Assembly (NCBI GenBank): GCA_921293015.1 | Contig: OV121088.1 | Span: 21,179,645-21,243,644 of the forward strand | Direction: 5' to 3' | DNA: 64,000 bases | Source of the DNA: Phorcus lineatus | Taxonomy: Eukaryota; Mollusca; Gastropoda; Trochida; Trochidae | Shown: piece after piece, positions 5,560 through 40,009 of the stretch | Numbering within the stretch: position 1 is the first letter of the stretch | Layout: every line of letters starts with the position of its first letter | Program-made: the position numbers and the translations under genes | Notes under the pieces: generated by a model | Told to the model about the DNA's origin: nothing | What the model saw: only the letters and a program-made list of their open reading frames with translations | Databases searched by the model: none

Positions 5560-7682
5560 GTTAAGTGGTCAGTCTGAGCGCCTACAGGATTCTGGCGCGC
5601 TCTTAATAATAAAAAGGGTACAGATACGATTAAGCAATCTCCAAGTCTCGATGAATTTTACTCATTTTATGAACACTTAAACTCCAATCGACATTCCGGC
5701 AATGTGGAGAATGATGTTTATGAACTTGAAGCTGACAACGATACCCTCAATAAAGACTTCACCCTTGATCAAAAAGCTAAAACGTAACAAAGCTGCGGGG
5801 TTAGATCAAATCGAAAATGATTTCATCATTGACTCCATACATACATTAGGCCCATGCCTAGTTAATCTTTTTAATTTGATAATTGCTACCGGCAATATTC
5901 CTAAAGAGTGGTTAGTGGGAGTTATTAGACCAATCTATAAAGGTAAGGGCGCTAAAACAGATACTAATTCGTATCGCCCTATAACAATTCTTAGCTGTCT
6001 TGGTAAATATTTTACAGGTATCTTGAATGATAGACTTACGAAATACTTGGAATCTAACACAATACTATCCAGATGTCAAGCAGGCTTTAGAGCCGGATAC
6101 TTAACTATTGATAGTATGTATATAATGACAATGTTATCTGATATACTAAAAAATAGTAAACAGAAACTTTACTGTGCATTTATAGATTTTTCTAAAGAAT
6201 TTGATAATGTATGGAGGGTTGCGCTTTGGTCTAAACTATATAGTAATGGAATCTCTGGTAGGTTCCTCACCCTAGTCAAAAGTATGTACCACACCATCAA
6301 ATCATGTATACAACTTAACGGTAATATATCAGACTTTTTTCCAAGTCACTCAGGAGTTAGACAAGGTGAGAACCTGTCGCCTTTATTATTTTGCATGTAT
6401 CTCAATGACATTGAACAGTGGATGAAATGTCATAATTGTGAAGGCGTGAATGTCTCTAGATTGAACGACGTTGTTTTTGTGTATATACAATTATTACTCT
6501 ATGCAGATGATACAGTTCTGTTTGCTACAAGTCCTAAATCTTTGCAACGTTCATTAAATTCTTTCAAAAAATACTGCGATAAATGGAAACTTGATATAAA
6601 TAAAACTAAAACTAAAATTGTTATATTCGGAAGTGGCAAACGAAGAGTAAACAAGTTATCATTCTTCATCGAGGAACACGAACTTGAGATAGTTGACAAC
6701 TATTGTTACCTTGGATTTGTATTCAACAAAAATAGAAAGTTTACTATTGGTTTGAAATCATTATCTGTGAATGCTACAAAATGTATGTACATTCTTTTAA
6801 GAAAAGCTCGTAATCTCGATCTACCGCTTGACTGCATTAACAAAGCCTTCGACACAATGATTCTCCCGATACTTCTATATGGAGCGGAAATCTGGGGTTA
6901 CTCAAATTTTTAATATCCTAGAAAAGGTACATCTGAAGTTCTTGAAGTTGGCAGCAGGACTTAAGATATGAACACAGAACTTTATGGTGTATGGGGAACT
7001 TGGTAGGAAACCACTTGACATTCTGATAGCTAAAAGAATGATAAACTTTTGGCATAAACAGATATCAGAAAACAATACATTATCGTGTGACATGTTAACC
7101 TTAATCACTTCAGATTTATCTTGCAACTATCAATCACCATGGGTTAATCATATTGAATCAATACTAAACAATTGTGGGCATAAATACCACAACAAGTGAA
7201 CTGCTTTTGAAAACTACCTTTATCTACCAAAACACATCGCTTATCCTATACTTAAATTCAGAACCACCAACCACAAATTACCTATTGAAAAAGGTCGCTG
7301 GAAAATACACCTAAAGAAAACAGAACTTGTAATTTATGTAATTCAACAGCTATTGCAGACGAATTTCACTATATTTTCCGTTGTACTGCGCTAGATATCC
7401 AAAGAAACCACCTTTTACCAAGTAAATATGTTAATAAACCAAATCTAAACTCGTACCGACTTCTTTTCTCCTCTAATAAAAGAAAGAAATTTTAATCACT
7501 TGCAGCATTTATAAACATGTTAACAAGAAAAGTCTCATAACCTAATATCCTCTTCTTTGAATGTCCATTCATTTAAAACTTGTTAGCAAAATAGTCATCT
7601 TGTCATATTATTTAATGTATTGTACACTGTACTATATTCTCATTTCACCATTGGTGGTCATGAATAATAAAGAATCTTGATG
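5560..7682 (+). mobile_element. 5'-truncated non-LTR retrotransposon (LINE), antisense to the GPCR
   Basis: The copy begins in the linker between endonuclease and reverse transcriptase (SPSLDEFYSFYEHL near 5640). It contains the RT frame at 5702-6913, and continues in other frames through VYGELGRKPLDILIAKRMINFW (about 6987) to the C-terminal domain (ADEFHYIFRC about 7350-7390). The 3' UTR has a CACC-ATT-GGTG hairpin at 7646-7656, then GAATAATAAAGAATCTTGA. The endonuclease is missing. Motif style fits a Jockey-superfamily clade; the clade is not certain. It lies inside the receptor intron. Confidence 0.88.
5702..6913 (+). pseudogene. LINE reverse transcriptase frame (403 codons)
   Basis: This is the RT of the enclosing LINE, which would copy LINE RNA at a nicked genomic site. 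RT blocks appear in order: AAGLDQI (31-37), NSYRPI (89-94), AFIDFSKEFD (159-168, catalytic D162), SGVRQGENLSPLLF (217-230) and the palm box LLLYADDTVLF (264-274, catalytic aspartates 269-270). A thumb region ends at ILLYGAEIWGY. Both catalytic blocks are intact. The frame lacks the endonuclease in front and breaks near 6908, after which the C-terminal part continues in another frame. It is therefore a long surviving piece, not a functional ORF. Confidence 0.9.
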
Positions 7683-22000: not shown

Positions 22001-23240
22001 CAATGTTAACACATCCACAATTTAAATGAACTCGTATTTTCGCGAGAACACAGGATACTAAACAAATACAATAAAATGTTAAAATCGTTAATGATATTGT
22101 GTCAAAATCAGTGCGATCGTTTTAAGCTTATTTAATAACTTTGTATTTAAAAATATTGTCAAATTACAAGTCGTTTAATATCCTCTATGTAGCACGTCCT
22201 ATCAGTGCGTATGGAAGGTGGGTGCAGCCTCTAATAATTCGACACAGCGGAGCGATGTGAAAACCAAAAGTATGTACGTACAAACGTACTTGAAGTGAGC
22301 TACAGTCGATAACCACTTGAGCATCAGGTAAACGGTCTTTCCAATACCTTGTCATACATTTAGAAGCTCTCTCCTCACAGCCGCCAGCAATGACCATGCA
22401 GATGAAAGGACCTATCCCTTGTGACTATCAGAAGAACCATTACCCCTCAGAGCTCGCATGATTAGGAGCAAAGCTTTAGTGTCTTATTTACACTCAAGCA
22501 ATAACATTCTTCTGAGAATCTGACGATTAATATTACGGAGTTATAAACCTTCATATTTCAGTTTAATAAAAGAAATAATATAGCTTATATACATTTTAAT
22601 TATCTATTTAAATTGTTTGGTGATTAATGTCATTTAGGTTTTTGAAAAGGTCTATGATAATATCTTTGAAAAAAAAAAGTTCAGACAAATTCCGAAAACA
22701 AAACGCCAAAAGCACATGGTTTCATGCTATACGGATTTGAAACTACCATAGAGATTCATAACTGGCGACTCCTGTCTGTAAGGTCGGAGCTTGTACTGAG
22801 ATTAGCCATTCTTGCCTTTTCTCAACTGATAGCGCCAGAGTATGCTTAACGGTGTCTTGGATGCCTCCCCTCACGATGTTACATACTCCACATGATTGAA
22901 TGAAAATATTCCCGCTACATATGAGACTGTCAACGCGCGGGAAGCGTTCGGTAGAAACTGTATCATATTCATTTTACCATTTCATTTCCATAATTGTATA
23001 TTAGTTTTGAAAAGCCTATTGCGGTTATGATATCACGACAAAAAGGAACCGATGATAACATAGGGTTTTGTAAAGTGGAATATATAAACGCTGTGTAATT
23101 GCAAGCCAGCGAAAAAGCAAATCTATTGCAATATCTATTTTGTTAAGAGTTAATTTCTGTAATTATCATCACTTCCAATAAAAATGCAATTTTTACATAC
23201 GTGATAACGGTTATGTATCATTAAAGTTAACTGCTTTTCT
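22001..23240. other. No feature seen (intron, next to the donor)
   Basis: AT-rich intronic sequence; nothing recognised besides the extension of the receptor frame past the splice donor to a stop at 23150. Confidence 0.4.
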
Positions 23241-23250
23241 GTATACTCAC

Positions 23251-24199
23251 CCAAAGGTAGAATGAAGAAGAAAGGAAACCAACATAGTATGTACACTCCA
23301 ACAACGATTCCTAATGTTTTTGCGGCTTTCTTTTCCCTCTTAAACTTAGCGACTTTACCGGCAAGAGTTAGTCTGGACACGCCCTTGCGGCCTGATCCCT
23401 CCGAGTGTTCACTGGAGCTGCTGCTTTGGTAAAGGGGGGACGGGGTTGACGGACTCTTGCCCGTGTGGATGCGTAATGTTACCCCCTCACACTCGTCTAT
23501 CTTAGACGTCTTCACTCCAGTGGACAGGAACTTGGAGTGTTTGACAGCCTCCCGGTATATCCGTATGTACACGACTACGATGATGAAGGTTGGAATATAG
23601 AAAGAACCTGACACTGAGAACAACACATAACCAAGCTGTGTAGTCACATTACAAACTCGGGGGTCGGGGTGGGGAGGTTCTTTCCACCCGATTAGCGGCG
23701 CTATAGAAATGATAATAGATAATATCCAAACCAGAATAATGATATAAACCGCACGTTTCTCTGTCAAGACAGTTGAGTGTTGGAGGGGTCTAGTCACTCC
23801 GATGTATCTATCTATGCTGATTACACAGAGACTCATGATGGAGGCAGTGCAGCAGAGCACGTCGATGGCAGCCCAAATATCACAGAGCACCTGCCCAAAG
23901 AGCCAGTATTTGAGCACTTCCAAGCTTGCGGATAGGGGCAGCACGGTGGTACCTAGCAGCAGATCGGCTATAGCCAGATTCACGATGAAGTAATTAGTCG
24001 TGCTCCTCAGGTGCGAGTTGACGAACACTGCCAGAAGAACTAATACATTGCCACACACAGTCATCAGATCTATGATGCCAAGAAGTATTCCTACTGGTAT
24101 TGCCTCCCTGAGATCTAGTGCCGCATGGCTGAAAGACGTAGTGTTAAGGGTAGAGTTATCCAGGTAGACAGGTGTAGAGGTGTCCAAGAGCTCTTCCAT
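23251..24199 (-). CDS. First coding exon of alpha-1-adrenergic-like amine GPCR (TM1-TM6)
   Basis: The 316 complete codons encode a rhodopsin-family amine receptor. The N-terminus carries NxT/S sites (N15, N19). TM1 has GN (50-51); TM2 has NLAIADLLL with D79. TM3 has C106, the amine-binding D113 and DRY (130-132). TM4 has W158. The second loop has GWKEP and C183. TM5 has FSVSGSFYIP with serines 195 and 199 at the catechol-contact positions 5.42 and 5.46 and P203. The third loop contains the alpha-1-like signature LTLRIH (here VTLRIH, 240-245). TM6 has REKKAAKTLGIVVG then CWFPFF (306-311). Together these favour alpha-1 adrenergic-like over other amine classes, with octopamine-alpha the main alternative. 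Reading past GTGAGT only adds an intron-encoded tail. The start chosen is the first ATG giving a full N-terminus; two uORFs lie before it. Confidence 0.93.
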
Positions 24200-28190: not shown

Positions 28191-29307
28191 TAGGGGAGAC
28201 CGGGGCAATTTGGGACATGGGGTAGATATAAGGACACAATAGGCATCTATTGATTTCAAAGAAAGAAACGGTCAATAGCACATGAAGTGACATCATACAC
28301 CATGTGACAAATGATGCTGATGGCTGAAAATGTGGTGTAGTTCAATCACTGGAACGTAAAATTCGTAAATTTCTATAGTCTGAGTAAATTTCAGCATCTT
28401 AGTAATTATGATCTGATGTAAGGATAATTAACGGAACCTAGTTGATACCTATTGTTCTGGAGCATTCTGTCATTGTGCTAAGTTCTAACAATGAATTACT
28501 TGACATGATATTTCAATTAGTTAATATGGAGACATGTGACCCTTTTATTGGTCATCGGGGCAGTTGGGGACAGTATTAACGGGGTAGATTGGGACAGGGT
28601 CTCAATGTGCACAGGTACAGTTTTACAACATCCCGATGGTCTAATCGTTATAAATCTATCTATAGCCTACACTCTTTGTTTTGTCTATATGAAATACTAG
28701 AGATCATAATAAGTAATAAACAAAAATAATAAATAATGATTATTAACATCTTCAAGTGTGCCTTTCAAAGATCTAATGCTAACTTGGGGCTCCAGGGGAA
28801 CTGACCACTTTACTGGATTATTGACCACAACAGTTTTCATTAAGTAGCTTGACCACTTTGTTAACCACACAAACTATAGTGTTGAAAATATGGTGCTGCT
28901 TCTGCTCGACAACAACCAGAGCCATGTATCCCATTGCAGCCAAAAACTAAAGCCTCGTGTATAAATTTACCTGATACTTCAACAAGCAACATTCCATTGT
29001 TTTTGTCACTGTGATGATATTTATTGGAAGTGATGTATCTTTAATCATTATTTTCAACAGACATGTATATTGTGCCCTGGTTCGTGCCCCAATGTTCCTA
29101 AGGGTGGGGCAGTTTGGGACAGCATTGTTCACTTTTTTATTTCTTATCTATACAAAATTTTTGTTGATATATTGCATTGTCTCTTGTTTTCCTATTTTAA
29201 CAATACAGGTTGCTTTAAACCTGCAAAGTTTCATGTTGTTTTACTTCATAGATTAAGAAGAAACAGGAAAATAATGTTTTTGTCCCAGTGTGACAAGGTC
29301 TCCCCTA
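28191..29307. mobile_element. Candidate TIR element with GGGGCAxTTxGGGACA repeats
   Basis: The left end TAGGGGAGACC (28191) is mirrored by GGTCTCCCCTA (29297-29307). About 19 of the first 27 positions match in inverted orientation. GGGGCARTTKGGGACA-like 16-mers occur at 28202, 28557, 28581 (GGGGTAGATTGGGACA) and 29106. No transposase or clear target duplication was found. Possibly a non-autonomous DNA transposon. Confidence 0.45.
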
Positions 29308-29554
29308 TTTGTGGTGGATTCTGTTTATCTGTACTAGTGAAATATAATCAAATTTATTCGTCAAAAATAGTTTTCCTATTTTAACAATACAGGTTGCTTT
29401 AAACCTGCAAAGTTTCATGTTGTTTTACTTCATAGATTAAGAAGAAACAGGAAAATAATGTTTTTGTCCCAGTGTGACAAGGTCTCCCCTATTTGTGGTG
29501 GATTCTGTTTATCTGTACTAGTGAAATATAATCAAATTTATTCGTCAAAAATAG
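29185..29554. repeat. 185-bp perfect tandem duplication
   Basis: 29185-29369 and 29370-29554 read identically by eye, from GTTTTCCTATTTTAAC to TTCGTCAAAAATA. The right terminus of the candidate TIR element is therefore present twice. Either a very recent duplication or an assembly artefact. Confidence 0.93.
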
Positions 29555-34190: not shown

Positions 34191-35785
34191 AGGTAACAAT
34201 AATACATTGCCCTTTATGGGAGGGAGTTCCATATGACAGGGTCAGCAACTGAGAAGGCACGACGCCAAGTTTGGTTGAGGTTGATGGGACACGCAATTGG
34301 AGTTGTTGAGAAGATCGTAGAGATCGGCAGGGTTGATACATGGAGAGTAGTTCTTTCAAGTACAGAGGAGCCGAGGGGACACGGAGAGCACAGAAGGTCA
34401 ACACAAGAATTTTGAAGGTGATCCTATGTTTGATGGGAAGCCAGTATAGTTGCTGAAGAAATGGAGTGATGTGAACATCTGGTCGTGTTCGGGAAACCAA
34501 GCGTGCTGCCTTGTTCTGAATGCGCTGCAAATGTGAAATTGGGCCACATCCGGAAATAAGAGAATTGCAAAAGTCAAGCCTAGATGTGACATAAGAGTGG
34601 ACAAGAGTTTAGCAGGAATCATTGTCAATGTACTTCCGGATTTTACCTATGTTGGATATGTGGAAATTAGTAGATTTTGCTGTATTTAAAACATGTTGTT
34701 TACATGACATTGTTCTGTTCATCGTAAGTCCGAGATTTCTGATATTTGTGGATGGAGTCATACAAACTTTGTCAACTGTAAGTTTAACACCAGTTATTTT
34801 GTCAAGCTGCTTTTGAGTGCCAATTACCATGAATTCAGTTTTGTCACCATTAAGTTTTAAAAAGTTTGCAGCCATCACGGTACTCACATTCTCTGCAGTT
34901 TTCAATCTGATTTATGGCAGGAGCCACAGAAGATGGTTTTACTGCAATGTACAATTGCTGCTCATCAGCGTAGCCATGGAAATCAAGACTGTGATTCCTG
35001 ATAAGGCGACCCAGGGGCTGGATGTAGCAGGTGAATAGAACTGGTCCCAACACCGATCCTTGTGGAACCCCATGCTTAAGATTTTTTGCAGCTGAAGCAA
35101 TACCATCAACAAGTACCCGCATTGACCTGTCTGAAAGGTATGACCTGATCCAAGAGAGAACAGAGCCAGAAATGCCAAAGGTATGATGCAGCCTCGATAG
35201 TAGGATGCCGTGACTGATCGAATCGAATGCTGCAGAAAAGCACTAGTAGGACCACTTCCTGTCTGTCCATGGATAATAAGATGTCATTTTGGACTCTGTT
35301 TAAGGCGGTTTCTGTGCTGTGAGATCGTTTGTAGGCAGATTGGAATGGTTCTGAAAGACTGTGATCCTGGATGTGGAACTGAAGCTGAGTGAGTACAACT
35401 TTCTCCATAACTTTGGAGAGGAAACTGAGATTAGACACAGGTCTTAAGTTACTGGAATTACTAGGATCGAGAGATGGTTTCTTGAGGATTGGGGTCACAA
35501 TAGCTTCCTTGAAACACTGTGGGAAGACTCCAGCTACCAAGGACGAGTTGATGAATCTACAAGCAGCTGGCACAATAGAGGGGAGACAACCCTCGAGCAA
35601 CCAAGTAGGGACAGGATCATTGGAACAAGTCTTATTAGGTGCTGCCTGCAACATTGTGAAAAGAGATGGTTCAGTAACTGGTTCAAAACTCAACAAAAGG
35701 GTGCCTTTGAATGCTTCATCATATTCAAGGGGGTCACAACCAGAGGACACTGAGGAAATGTCATGCTATTGTTATCGTGACGTCA
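34190..35785 (-). mobile_element. L2-type LINE relic, minus strand
   Basis: Pieces appear in order down the minus strand. The RT start has CSNDPVPTWLL, NLRPVSNLSFLSKVMEKVV and PFQSAYKRSHSTETALNRV (35750-35106). HGVPQGSVLGPVLF and a decayed YADD box (GYADEQQLY) follow (about 35080-34950). Then come LKLNGDKTEFMVIG and NIRNLGLTM (34870-34720), and IQNKAARLVSRTRPD...LYWLPIKHRITFK (34530-34400). These are diagnostic of the L2/CR1 group. At least four frame changes separate the pieces, and the palm Asp is changed to Glu, so it is long dead. Confidence 0.88.
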
Positions 35786-36491
35786 TTTGACCGTCTTGTT
35801 GAACAATTGATCCAAGTTGCTGTTCATGACTGTAGGTTTTTCTTTTCTTTTCGTTTTTAGTTTGAAACATATTAAAACAATTATGGACTGGTGAATTCGG
35901 TCAATACCTGTTTTATGGACCCGAGGAAAGCAATATTGACTGAGGACGATATGAAACCTATTGATAAGCTGTACACCTGCGATGACATAGTGTTGGATTA
36001 AATATTATTACTGTTTACCCGTGGTTGTCTTTTGTAAATTTGATAAAACAATTATAGACTATTGTAGAGTTCAATATCGGTTTTAATTGACCTGAGTAAA
36101 ACTATATGGAACAAAGTTAAAGAATGGATACAGCTAGGTACGAATGCCAACATTAACTTTTCAAAAAGAAACATTTGCCTTGGGTATCCCGAATACAGAA
36201 ATAGAGTACTCAACATGATAATCATTATTGTTAAATATAACACCTTTAAAACAAAGCAAAATGGAATGGAACCAAATTTTACATATATTAACAATGATGA
36301 AAAAAAACAATATTGACAAATTCAATGATTATTCAACTTGCAACTACTCGAAATTTATGACCCTTTGGTCAACCTGCCACTTACTTTTTAAAGACTAACC
36401 AAGACTAATATTGTAGTAATAAAGGTTTGTTCAAGTGTATTTGGAAAATTCCTAAATTGAAACTAAAAGTCACGCTTTTAATTGGATGAAT
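35786..36491. other. No firm feature; weak 168-bp-spaced direct repeat
   Basis: The texts around 35875-35945 and 36043-36110 (AAAACAATTATRGACT then a TCAATA block) resemble each other and may be an old duplication. Nothing else recognised. Confidence 0.3.
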
Positions 36492-36497
36492 TATATA

Positions 36498-38832
36498 TGT
36501 TAAAGTCAATATGTCAAATAAGTCAATTTGCCAAATGCCTGAACGATTTAGTCATTTGATCAAATGACAATGACCACCAGGCATTTTACAAAATGACTAA
36601 TTTTTTCAGTCATTTAATCTATATATGAGGAAAGAGATTTATTGATGAATTGATGTTTTTATTTCAGAGCATCAAGACATAGTTGTAGAACAGTTAACTC
36701 TCAAACATAATTACACAGTTGTAGCATACATGTACATGCATATGCCCATGATATGGCTCTCATTGAATTCTATTAATTGCAACAGTGAACTCTCGAATGA
36801 CACCTACTATTGCATAGAATATTGTGTTTTCTACATTTACATCTTTTGGTAGCACATTTGTACCGACCTCCACAGTTACATTTCATAAAGCCCTGTTCAC
36901 CTGTCGTCGATTCTGATTTGACAGCCTCACGCAGTGATGCCAATTTAGATTTTTCAATTTCTTCAAAATTTAAGAGTTTCTCTGGGCAAAGATCAAACTG
37001 GTTTCTTGAAAATTTTCCTTTTAATATACCAGATGGACACCCAATTGTGTACTGACCATCTTGAATCGACACAATCACACCTAAAATATTTCTTGGATCT
37101 CCCCTACCTCGATCTACTGATGGAATCGGTATGGCAACATTGTCACCTTCAGTACCAGGAGCCATGACAATTTTGCTTCTTTTGACTATCCTTTCCGCTT
37201 GTTGAAACTGGGCGGCGGCTGCTAACTTCCGCTTAAGGGATATATTGTCGGTCAATTCCTGAACTGCAGACACTTCTGTAACTTCTGTATCTTCTTCAGT
37301 ATCATCAGTCTGACTTTCCTCTGTGTTAGTAGAATACACTTCTTCTTGTGACTGACTGTCAGTGTCAGACTCTGGCATTCGTGGTACAGATAGAGCAGAT
37401 AGAAGGTCATCCTCAGACTGAAGGCGTTCAAGTAGTTCATGAGGCAGTGAGGAAGATATTAATCCAACCTTAGCCTCCGTACCAAACATGACAGAGTAGG
37501 GCGACTGTTTAATACCAGCATTGAAGCTTGTATTCTTGGAAAATTGGACAAACTTGATATGATGTCTTGTTATCGCTCATCCACGCAATCAACATGTCCT
37601 TAATATCACAGTTAGCGCGTTCCACAGATCCTTGACTCTGTGGATGCCTTGGTTTTACATGAACTATTATCAAGTTATCAATTTGCTTCAGTTCGTTTAT
37701 GACAGCTGCAGTAAATTCTGAACCATTATCACTTTGTAGAACATGTGGTGCTCCAAATAAAAGGAAAATATCCATAAGTTGGTATGCCACTTCTGTAGCA
37801 CGCCTTGAGGTCAGAGCCTTCAAAACACAAAATTTTGTCAAATGATCCTGATAAACCATTATCCACTTGAAACTACCTTGTGGAAGTGACTGCATATCGA
37901 TTAGATCCACTTGTCCACGTGATGCATATTCCTTTGTAAGGATTGGCCTAACAACTACACCTTTCGTTCTTGGCCGCTTTTTCTTCTTCTGACAGTCAAT
38001 GCATAATAATTTGAAAAGTTCAATCGATTCACGTGTTACATTAGCATATTTCTTTGCTAGTTCCTTTAGCATCCTGTCTCTTCCACCATGACCAGTTGAT
38101 AAGTCTGCTCGGCGTATGACATCATATGTTTATTCAATAGTGACGAAATACAACACCATCGAGTCACCTTATTCCCGCTTTTTTATCAGTTTTTCAATTC
38201 CGCCACATTCAAATACTTCATATTTGTTCAAAATATAATAGTCACTATTTGTCTTCTTGTCAGCTTTCATGTTCTTCAGCCTGTCAATAATTGAAAAGTA
38301 CTCTTCTATTGAAATTAAAACCTTCTTCATTGCATCATAAATTTTTTGTAATTCAATTTTGAATCTCTCTTCATGATTGCTACTGGCATCCATTATGTTG
38401 CTCTGACAATAACAACTGACACATTGGAGCAACAGAATCAGAATTATACACTGCAAGTGAAGTTGAAAAGCTAACCATTTTATCACAGTACAAGCCAATG
38501 TATGCGACACCATTTATCAGTGAACTCAAGCTCACATACTTATCAAAACATCAGCCAACTATGTGAGCTCCAACTCACCACTTTGTCCAAGTACAAGTAA
38601 AGTAGACCAGATCTATTTAGATATAAACTTACAAACTTGCAACTTTTTAGTGACACGTTATAATTGACATATTGCCTAAACATTAACAGTCAAATTGTCA
38701 AAAACACAGGGTACAATTTCAGTCATTTAGTTAAATGCCTAGGAAAATTAGTCATTTAATCAAATGACTGACCGTCGCCTGATACATTTAGGCATTTGAC
38801 GAAATGACTGATTTGACATATTGACTGTAACA
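36498..38832 (-). mobile_element. Integrase-type cut-and-paste DNA transposon with TGT...ACA ends (KRBA2-like; Ginger/IS3EU-type)
   Basis: The ends TGTTAAAGTCAATATGTCAA and the complement of TGACATATTGACTGTAACA form imperfect inverted repeats. The similarity continues for about 100 bp through blocks such as GTCATTTGATCAAATGAC, an 18-bp perfect palindrome at 36551-36568 with a near copy at 38751-38768. Flanks give a TATA (4-6 bp) duplication at 36494-36497 and 38833-38836. The interior holds one minus-strand gene for a KRBA2-like integrase. TGT/ACA ends plus a gypsy-like integrase without gag or RT indicate a Ginger/IS3EU-type DNA transposon. The exact superfamily is inferred. It is broken in a few places. 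Confidence 0.75.
36773..38395 (-). pseudogene. KRBA2-like DDE integrase/transposase
   Basis: Recognised from N- to C-terminus on the minus strand. An N-terminal helical part ends in YYILNKYEVFECGGIEKLIKK. The HxxC-like zinc part has TGHGGRDRML and CIDCQKKKKRPRTKGVVVRP. The DDE core has VDLIDMQSLPQGSFKWIMVY, SDNGSEF and PRHPQSQGSVERAN; the last Asp and the Glu are 35 residues apart, as in integrases. A FGTEAKVGLISSSLP segment leads to an acidic Ser/Thr stretch. A Cys-rich C-terminus has CNCGGRYKC, CKC, CNSRCH. Host KRBA2 proteins are thought to descend from such elements. Here the inverted repeats show a transposon copy. It appears inactive with a few breaks. Confidence 0.8.
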
Positions 38833-40009
38833 TATATATGTTATACAAAACGCTTTGATAAGTACCGCTGATAGTGTTATTATAGATGAAGTCAAGCTGC
38901 AAAGAACATATATAAAGCACGTGTTGTACAGATACTTTATTTTGATTGTGCTTTATAATGTCATAGTTTGTGTCTAGTTCTTGTGTATTTATTTATCTGA
39001 TGTATGTGCTGGTGACGCATTAACATAAGCAGAGTTTTGCTTGTTTGCCGAACCAGATTCTTTCTTGAATAAAAATATGTTTAAACCATGTTATACATTT
39101 TGAATAACGTGATGTTTTCAATTTCTGCCAAATGCGTATAGTGTTGTTCTTGTATACGATGTCTTTTTATATATGTAATTGTAATGTCAATGTACCACAA
39201 AAAGTAATAATAATAAAAAAATATTTGGTAATCAAAACTGCACTTCAGTTGAAAATACTGATCTGTTAAATTCAGTCCACATGTTTATAAATTTAACACA
39301 CAGATTTCTTTTTAAATAAAGTCCATATGACATAGTCATAATATTTAACTAATATTGATGTTGTTAGTCTTTGTTGTTGTTTTTCTTTTTCTTTGATTTA
39401 GCAGATTACATATTAACATACTCATGATATTTACTGATACCGTTGTTGTCTTACGAAAGTACTTGACAAGGCACAATTTTCTTGTATACATTTTCCCTCC
39501 TGTATATTCATCATGTCATATGTCTATGTTTTGTATAAAGCATAGTGAAAATTATCAAGTGTTGTTGGGTATGCCTAGTCATTGAGTTAAATGCTGCTTA
39601 TGAATATCAACGTTAATTAAATTCAAAATAATTTTTAGTGATTGAGTAAATCAAGGAAATCGTTTACCTTTGTTGATGTAGAGAATTAAGGATGTTACTG
39701 TTCGTTTAGTAGCTCAAATTGCCACTTCCGTATAAAACTGTCGTTGCATCATATCCATAAATATATAAAGACGTATTTGTTCTTAAATGTTAATTCCGAC
39801 AATTTAAGAGATAATGAATCATTTACGTATCCGATATATGTCTATTATATGTGTGTGTGCATTTAAATAGCTACAACCAAGCTTGAGGCGACAATGGATC
39901 ATTTGACAAAATCTAGACCCTGAATATTAATTGAAATAACTTTACGTTCCTGTCGGACCTATCATACTTTGAATCAATTCAACAGTTACATTACCTTATT
40001 TCTTAATGT
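38833..40009. other. No feature recognised
   Basis: AT-rich sequence with many short A/T runs; nothing identified. Confidence 0.4.

Follow-up and report, generated by a model that had tools for sequence, protein, structure and literature searches.

Among described elements, the Ginger2/Tdd transposons come closest to the one studied here. According to the consulted sections of PMC2836005, they have TGTNR tips, inverted ends (about 45-297 bp for Ginger2 in the published table), a 4-bp target duplication at RTATAY and a transposase with H2C2 and DDE domains, and they are without GPY/F and YPYY; TDD-4 and TDD-5 duplicate 5 bp. A Ginger2 family of Littorina saxatilis, a sea snail, is also listed there, and a survey of mollusc genomes, those of bivalves among them, gives counts of Ginger elements (sections of PMC10294476). 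Two further groups have to be considered. Ginger1 uses a CCGG or CCGT target and has both GPY/F and YPYY (PMC2836005, same sections), and in IS3EU elements, according to the consulted part of PMC10045372, the tips are TA..TA, the duplications usually measure 6 bp and an HHCC motif is missing.

We analyzed a stretch of 64,000 nucleotides from the gastropod Phorcus lineatus, hereafter the window. Positions 36498-38832 of the window are a DNA transposon with terminal inverted repeats (TIRs), whose transposase is integrase-like (D-D35-E) and ends in a Cys-rich tail (Table 1). Its family shares with Ginger2/Tdd the TGTNR tips, the 4-bp RTATAY duplication, the long TIRs and a single transposase with H2C2 and DDE domains that shows neither GPY/F nor YPYY. 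The difference is that the copy in the window is broken. We therefore regard it as very likely an inactivated transposon of the Ginger2/Tdd type, assigned by published marks, with palindromes in its ends that are putative sites of a transposase dimer.

Table 1. Features of the element, in window positions, and loci of the related families found in the same genome.
Feature	Position or loci	Strand	Remark
Whole element	36498..38832	- (transposase strand)	2335 bp; only full-length copy seen of family W
Target duplication, left copy TATA	36494..36497	.	
Left inverted end	36498..36598	.	half-site-like stretch from base 6 of tip
Palindromic unit 1, left end	36520..36541	.	7/11 pairs
Palindromic unit 2, left end	36549..36570	.	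10/11 pairs
Palindromic unit 3, left end	36578..36599	.	8/11 pairs
Transposase C-terminal piece, including stop codon	36773..37576	-	
Cys-rich tail, CXC-like	36779..36880	-	no Pfam match in window copy
Frameshift zone between integrase and C-terminal pieces	37512..37576	-	
Integrase piece of transposase	38129-37512	-	
Catalytic core, first D to E	37620..37907	-	D1 37905-37907, D2 37728-37730, E 37620-37622
H2C2 zinc-binding domain	37992..38105	-	first His is Asp in window copy
Stretch with stop codon(s) between N-terminal and integrase pieces	38130..38171	-	
Transposase N-terminal piece	38172..38393	-	start codon set by eye from starts of relatives
Right inverted end	38721..38832	.	extra stretch of ~11 bp relative to left end
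Palindromic unit 3, right end	38720..38741	.	8/11 pairs
Palindromic unit 2, right end	38749..38770	.	9/11 pairs, shifted by 11 bp
Palindromic unit 1, right end	38789..38810	.	7/11 pairs
Target duplication, right copy TATA	38833..38836	.	
Family A	L029, L031-L033		
Family B	L034		
Family C	L036, L046-L050, L052		
Family D	L035, L037, L045, L053		
Family E	L030		
Family F	L051, L056		core 56%

The element, its copies and related families

The element starts with TGTTA at 36498 and ends with TAACA at 38832, with TATA flanking it on each side. Its ends form two imperfect inverted arms, 36482-36543 with 38787-38848 at 84% identity and 36550-36598 with 38721-38769 at 78%. The inverted ends are thus ~100-112 bp long, as expected from the lengths published for Ginger2/Tdd. 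An initial annotation, made from the letters of the window, had described a structurally complete integrase transposon with TGT/ACA ends, long imperfect TIRs and a TATA duplication. The tips, the arms, the matches to the ends across the genome and the order of the domains all agree with that description. The gene does not: it lies in three pieces, interrupted by a stop codon region and a frameshift.

All three catalytic acidic residues are present in the window copy, with spacings of 58 and 35 residues, which is the D-D35-E arrangement that had been proposed; the D2-E spacing is one residue shorter than in six aligned relatives. The integrase piece matches the Pfam profiles rve (3.5e-7) and H2C2 (1.4e-3) below their cut-offs, and the N-terminal and C-terminal pieces have only weak Pfam matches, all below cut-off. 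The rve match is below the cut-off in all six proteins scanned (the window copy and five relatives). H2C2 is above it in L048 and L051, below it in the window copy, L045 and L030, and without a match in L029. The integrase of PFV in the PDB is matched at 6.4e-13 by the integrase piece and at 1.8e-18 by a seven-sequence profile. Hence, H2C2 and DDE domains occur in one transposase, as in Ginger2/Tdd, with the first His lost in the window copy. The Cys-rich C-terminus is also where it had been annotated; in the relative L048 this tail gives a weak match to TCR (E 0.21, below the Pfam cut-off). The AlphaFold model of the C-terminal piece has a mean pLDDT of 36.9.

Neither GPY/F nor YPYY was seen by eye in the transposase pieces of the window, and a simple motif search found neither in the frames of 11/11 relatives, although several of these frames stop short of the C-terminus. 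Pfam scans of the three coding pieces gave neither gag nor reverse transcriptase, in line with the initial annotation; the nearest reverse transcriptase fragments found, at 34850-35750, lie outside the element. The viral and prokaryote contig collections that were searched yielded no relatives of the transposase. Because of the stop codon region, the frameshift, the lost first His and the missing residue between D2 and E, the gene of the window copy is not competent, although its domains are still recognisable.

We searched the assembly of the window itself (957.8 Mb, 74 contigs). The element matched at least 99 stretches at the DNA level, and its left 120 bases gave 52 matches, which we grouped by eye into ~25 loci, some of them recognised by the right end. 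For the comparison of copies, 36 regions of the genome were fetched. The family of the window element, which we call W, has nine two-ended copies including that of the window; the other eight are internally deleted and measure 331 to 1410 bp. No intact W transposase was found among the 150 of 1217 candidates that were scored, where the best other proteins, 71-72% identical, belong to other families. All copies of family W that were seen are fossils or have internal deletions.

The flanks of 19 two-ended copies from families W, A-C, E and F were compared over at most 400 bases per side. Similarity was found in 2 of the 703 pairs, in both cases at least 179 bases away from the element. Since the sequences adjoining the elements are unrelated, the borders at 36498 and 38832 are exact, and the homology beyond them that would have contradicted the initial annotation is absent from these 19 copies. 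Target duplications were tallied in 20 two-ended copies (9 W, 4 A, 3 C, and one each of B, D, E and F), leaving out L035, L036, L037, L045, L046, L048 and L050, which have one end lost or not located; L056 and L059 are outside this tally. Identical 4-bp flanks were found in 18/20 copies (17 TATA and 1 TAGA), the exceptions being L014 and L015. Agreement extends to 5 bp in 0/20 and to 6 bp in 8/20, the latter owing to TA repeats. TATA by itself is weak evidence, because many TATA sites sit in TA-rich DNA. However, in L017, L027, L033, L034, L049 and L052 the agreement holds at 4 bp and is lost at 6 bp, and L031 is flanked on either side by TAGA, which is not a palindrome. The target reads RTATAY in 16 of the 18 duplications, and GTATAG in L027 and ATAGAT in L031.

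The joined flanks of the window element led to a candidate empty site, L054 (C5:28858244-28858403). There the left flank (88%, 252 bases) continues without a gap through the join, where a single TGTA replaces TATA, and then into the right flank from 39088 (91%, 124 bases). This is a paralogous empty site for two insertions, the transposon and a neighbouring repeat, and it fits a duplication of 4 bp, not of 2 or 6. The search for paired TIRs and empty TATA sites that had been suggested as a check thus gave the ~25 loci matched by the ends and this one site. The repeat, at ~38845-39088, is a SINE-like dispersed sequence of ~244 bp that is missing from L054. It is bordered on each side by ATGTTATACA (38838 and 39088) and is matched by 37 of the 40 places listed in the search with the joined flanks.

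The genome carries several related families, whose cores are 64-72% identical (lower in F, Table 1). Self-comparison shows TIRs of 144-234 bp at 86-99% identity in L029, L031, L032, L034, L036 and L037, shorter ones in L030 (51 bp) and L033 (44 bp), and none in L035 or L045. The tips are TGTTA in families W and A-E and TGTCG in F, with a degenerate AGTTA in L027. Uninterrupted frames reach 542 aa in L029, 544 aa in L030, 502 aa in L032 and ~500 aa or more in others; the frame of L030 ends before the Cys-rich tail, and L029 is without part of H2C2. Within family A, most stretches are 95-100% identical to L029 and two are at 92%, which marks this family as young and recently mobile. In a tree of 13 cores, all from families of this genome, the copies of A group together, as do those of C, and W stands beside B with modest support (86/85). 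For Ginger2 in a mollusc, the element contributes a fossil family, and with it come several related families, some of them young.

Among five further, more distant loci, L056 is family F again, L059 has ends like those of family C, and L057, L058 and L060 show no inverted ends. L057:1024-2091 (minus strand) holds an open frame of 356 aa related to the transposase, in which the second catalytic Asp is Gly; it is either a decayed copy or a host gene. Ten of the matches scored follow each other in exact steps of 2393 bp at G000 C9:13846869-13868756; in this array, a two-tipped element of family D (L053:1274-2971) is now inside a tandem repeat unit. The two units in L053 have identical 365-aa frames, and their ungapped overall agreement is only 2168/2608 bases. 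In L050, left tips of W and C share a strand, with that of W 907 bp upstream, which may reflect a nested insertion.

Palindromic arrays in the ends

In families A-E, a shared tip, TGTTACAGT, is followed by units made of a 22-bp palindrome and a 7-bp spacer. Arrays of such palindromes at a pitch of ~29 bp are found in seven families, and in six of them the first palindrome begins 23 bp from the tip. In 12 ends from six families (A-E and W), the register 23+29k from the tip gives a mean of 7.97/11 pairs, against 2.2-4.1 at the 28 other offsets. The first two units are in register, each with at least 7/11 pairs, in 23/26 ends. Those off register are the 5' end of L030, the 3' end of L033 and the right end of the window copy (by an 11-bp shift), and the 3' end of L049 leaves it after unit 2. 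The 3' end of L029 holds five stretches with at least 9 pairs, whereas 200 dinucleotide shuffles have 0.16 on average and never more than 2; there are none in the 5' end of L030 and the 3' end of L033. The ends of the window copy have one such stretch each, a number also reached by shuffles. As these ends do not exceed the shuffles, the pattern is carried by the relatives.

Covariation was studied in an alignment of 25 distinct units from six families that we selected ourselves, comprising units in register and the shifted units of the window copy. In register, 86.9% of cells are paired; column shuffles give 73.9%, and sliding the register by 1-3 leaves 28.8-38.0%. The covariation score is 0.436 against 0.200 in column shuffles, a value that none of 500 shuffles reaches. 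Counting the pairs in which both sides change shows no such excess (6 versus 5.6 in column shuffles, with 297/500 as high). Pair 5/18 is formed in all 25 units, with all four base pairs occurring, and pair 9/14 in 23/25, again with four base pairs. The commonest letter at position 5 separates family A (T), B (A) and C (G) from D, E and W (all with C); at position 9, families A-C mostly have A, D has C or G, E has G and W has T. Since units within one family are related, the independent evidence for covariation amounts to a handful of differences between families. Family F, which we inspected after having seen the pattern in the others, has TATA-flanked TGTCG tips and palindromes resembling TGTACAAGTTATAACTTGTACA at a pitch of 29-30 bp and in a different register.

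A single half-site is placed best at base 6 of the tip in 6/6 families (15 offsets tried), with a slight lead in family A (6.0 versus 5.9 at another offset). A family-specific half-site is not supported, as the family's own profile scores best in only 1/6 families. This lone half-site makes the transposase the simplest reader of the palindromes, which are probably two-fold transposase sites with family-specific letters. A literature search, including word searches in the consulted parts of PMC2836005, PMC10871703 and PMC10294476, returned no report of palindromic arrays in Ginger ends. The stems palindrom, subterminal, tandem repeat and binding site are absent from the main text of PMC2836005. 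As far as the literature was looked at, the palindromic layout of the ends seems to be new.

Following the chemistry of DDE integrases, the transposase would bring both ends together, cut at the TGTTA tips and join the 3' ends to the target with a 4-bp offset between its strands, favouring RTATAY. The covariation suggests that the two-fold palindromes at the 29-bp pitch would serve as internal sites of a transposase dimer, with the single half-site adjoining the cleaved tip. The letters that differ between families at two palindrome positions would let each family mark its own ends. A tentative extension of this idea, to which we give slightly less than even chances, is that Ginger2 families carry a private address code (22-bp sites in a fixed 29-bp phase, with two switchable pairs per half-site) that is read by their own transposase and keeps related families separate. 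Domesticated descendants, KRBA2 for one, might then be expected to recognise similar palindromes.

The arrays could instead be sites of a host DNA-binding protein, or products of template-switch correction, without a role in transposition. We consider this rather unlikely. Template switching perfects palindromes without selection, and the correction of near-palindromes is the main rival to transposase sites; moreover, the ends of the window copy taken singly do not exceed shuffles, and transposase binding is read from sequence. Template switching would, however, not be expected to produce a fixed distance from the tip, a 29-bp pitch across families or the lone half-site at the tip in 6/6 families. 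A single host factor is also an unlikely reader: within this one genome, two palindrome positions vary between families and F differs wholly, changes that one factor would not need. If the palindromes are bound by the transposase, they offer a concrete hypothesis for recognition by Ginger2 transposases and their domesticated relatives, and natural matched variants of protein and site in one genome. The element itself is a dead addition to known Ginger2; the palindromic architecture of the ends seems to be the part worth following.

Proposed assignment to Ginger2/Tdd and the link to KRBA2

By the marks described in the consulted sections of PMC2836005, the assignment to Ginger2/Tdd rather than to Ginger1 or IS3EU is supported. 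Ginger1/GIN elements resemble the element in their Gypsy-like integrase, TGTNR tips and 4-bp duplication, but the CCGG/CCGT target and the GPY/F and YPYY motifs are theirs and neither was seen here. Ginger1 was thus rejected: the 18 duplications are 17 TATA and 1 TAGA, with no CCGG or CCGT. IS3EU/GingerRoot and IS481EU are likewise eukaryotic DNA transposons with an integrase-like DDE core. IS3EU differs in its tips, in its usual duplication length and in having no HHCC, and IS3EU/GingerRoot was rejected since the TA..TA tips and the usual 6-bp duplication are not found here.

KRBA2 and ZBED9/SCAND3 are domesticated genes of the host that bear fused KRAB or SCAN domains. Llorens et al. are said to have proposed in 2012 that SCAND3 and KRBA2 originate from transposons, KRBA2 from GINGER2. 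The label KRBA2-like, which the initial annotation gave to the element, is taken here as an assumption. The initial annotation saw in a TIR-bearing molluscan copy a bearing on the origin of the vertebrate genes. The TIR-bearing integrase transposon is there, but its weight for that question is small, as the descent of KRBA2 from GINGER2 is already stated in print (consulted part of PMC13359818), which largely answers the reason for high interest. The likeness of these genes to the element lies in this published tracing of KRBA2 to GINGER2 (PMC13359818, same part); they differ in being domesticated host genes, and it is through the literature that they are likened to the element.

The element might also belong to a separate integrase-like superfamily, a KRBA2 group with Ginger2-like tips and target and the same mechanism, standing outside Ginger2. 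A Cys-rich or CXC tail is indeed unmentioned for Ginger2 in the consulted sections of PMC2836005. Yet all of the published Ginger2 marks tested are found here and KRBA2 is itself linked to GINGER2 in print (part of PMC13359818 consulted), so we hold a separate superfamily to be improbable. A decayed Gypsy retrotransposon fragment or a host integrase gene with chance inverted repeats has a negligible probability: the core does resemble retroviral and Ty3 integrases, but the ends are common to ~25 loci, the flanks are unrelated in 19 copies, a target duplication and the empty site L054 are present, and the Gypsy elements of this genome presumably account for its next-best matches (among the 150 of 1217 candidates scored), which have 26-29% identity and for the most part sit in longer frames (up to 1855 aa). 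An LTR retrotransposon or Gypsy fragment was accordingly rejected on the empty site, the target, the tips and the motifs. This leaves the inactivated Ginger2/Tdd-type transposon as the best explanation.

Other features of the window and the assembly

A reading frame of a rhodopsin-family GPCR (7tm_1, 3.6e-66) lies at 23150-24199 of the window on the minus strand. Reverse transcriptase frames (RVT_1), LINE-like by eye, are found at 5702-6913 (plus strand) and 34850-35750 (minus strand). The latter is split into two parts, with ~750 bp between it and the transposon. Positions 29186-29554 are a perfect tandem duplication with a unit of 184 bp.

The assembly includes a mitochondrial contig (G000 C74, 19,115 bases). 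Read with table 5, it has what we take to be COX3-ND3-ND2-COX1-COX2-ATP6 on one strand, the genes being named by eye. This order looks gastropod-like and makes a mollusc host plausible. Beside COX3, nearly 3 kb (L062:6172-9204) consist of a TA-rich microsatellite that translates as Met-Tyr repeats in several frames. The mitochondrial COX1 contains 13 TGA codons, read as Trp.
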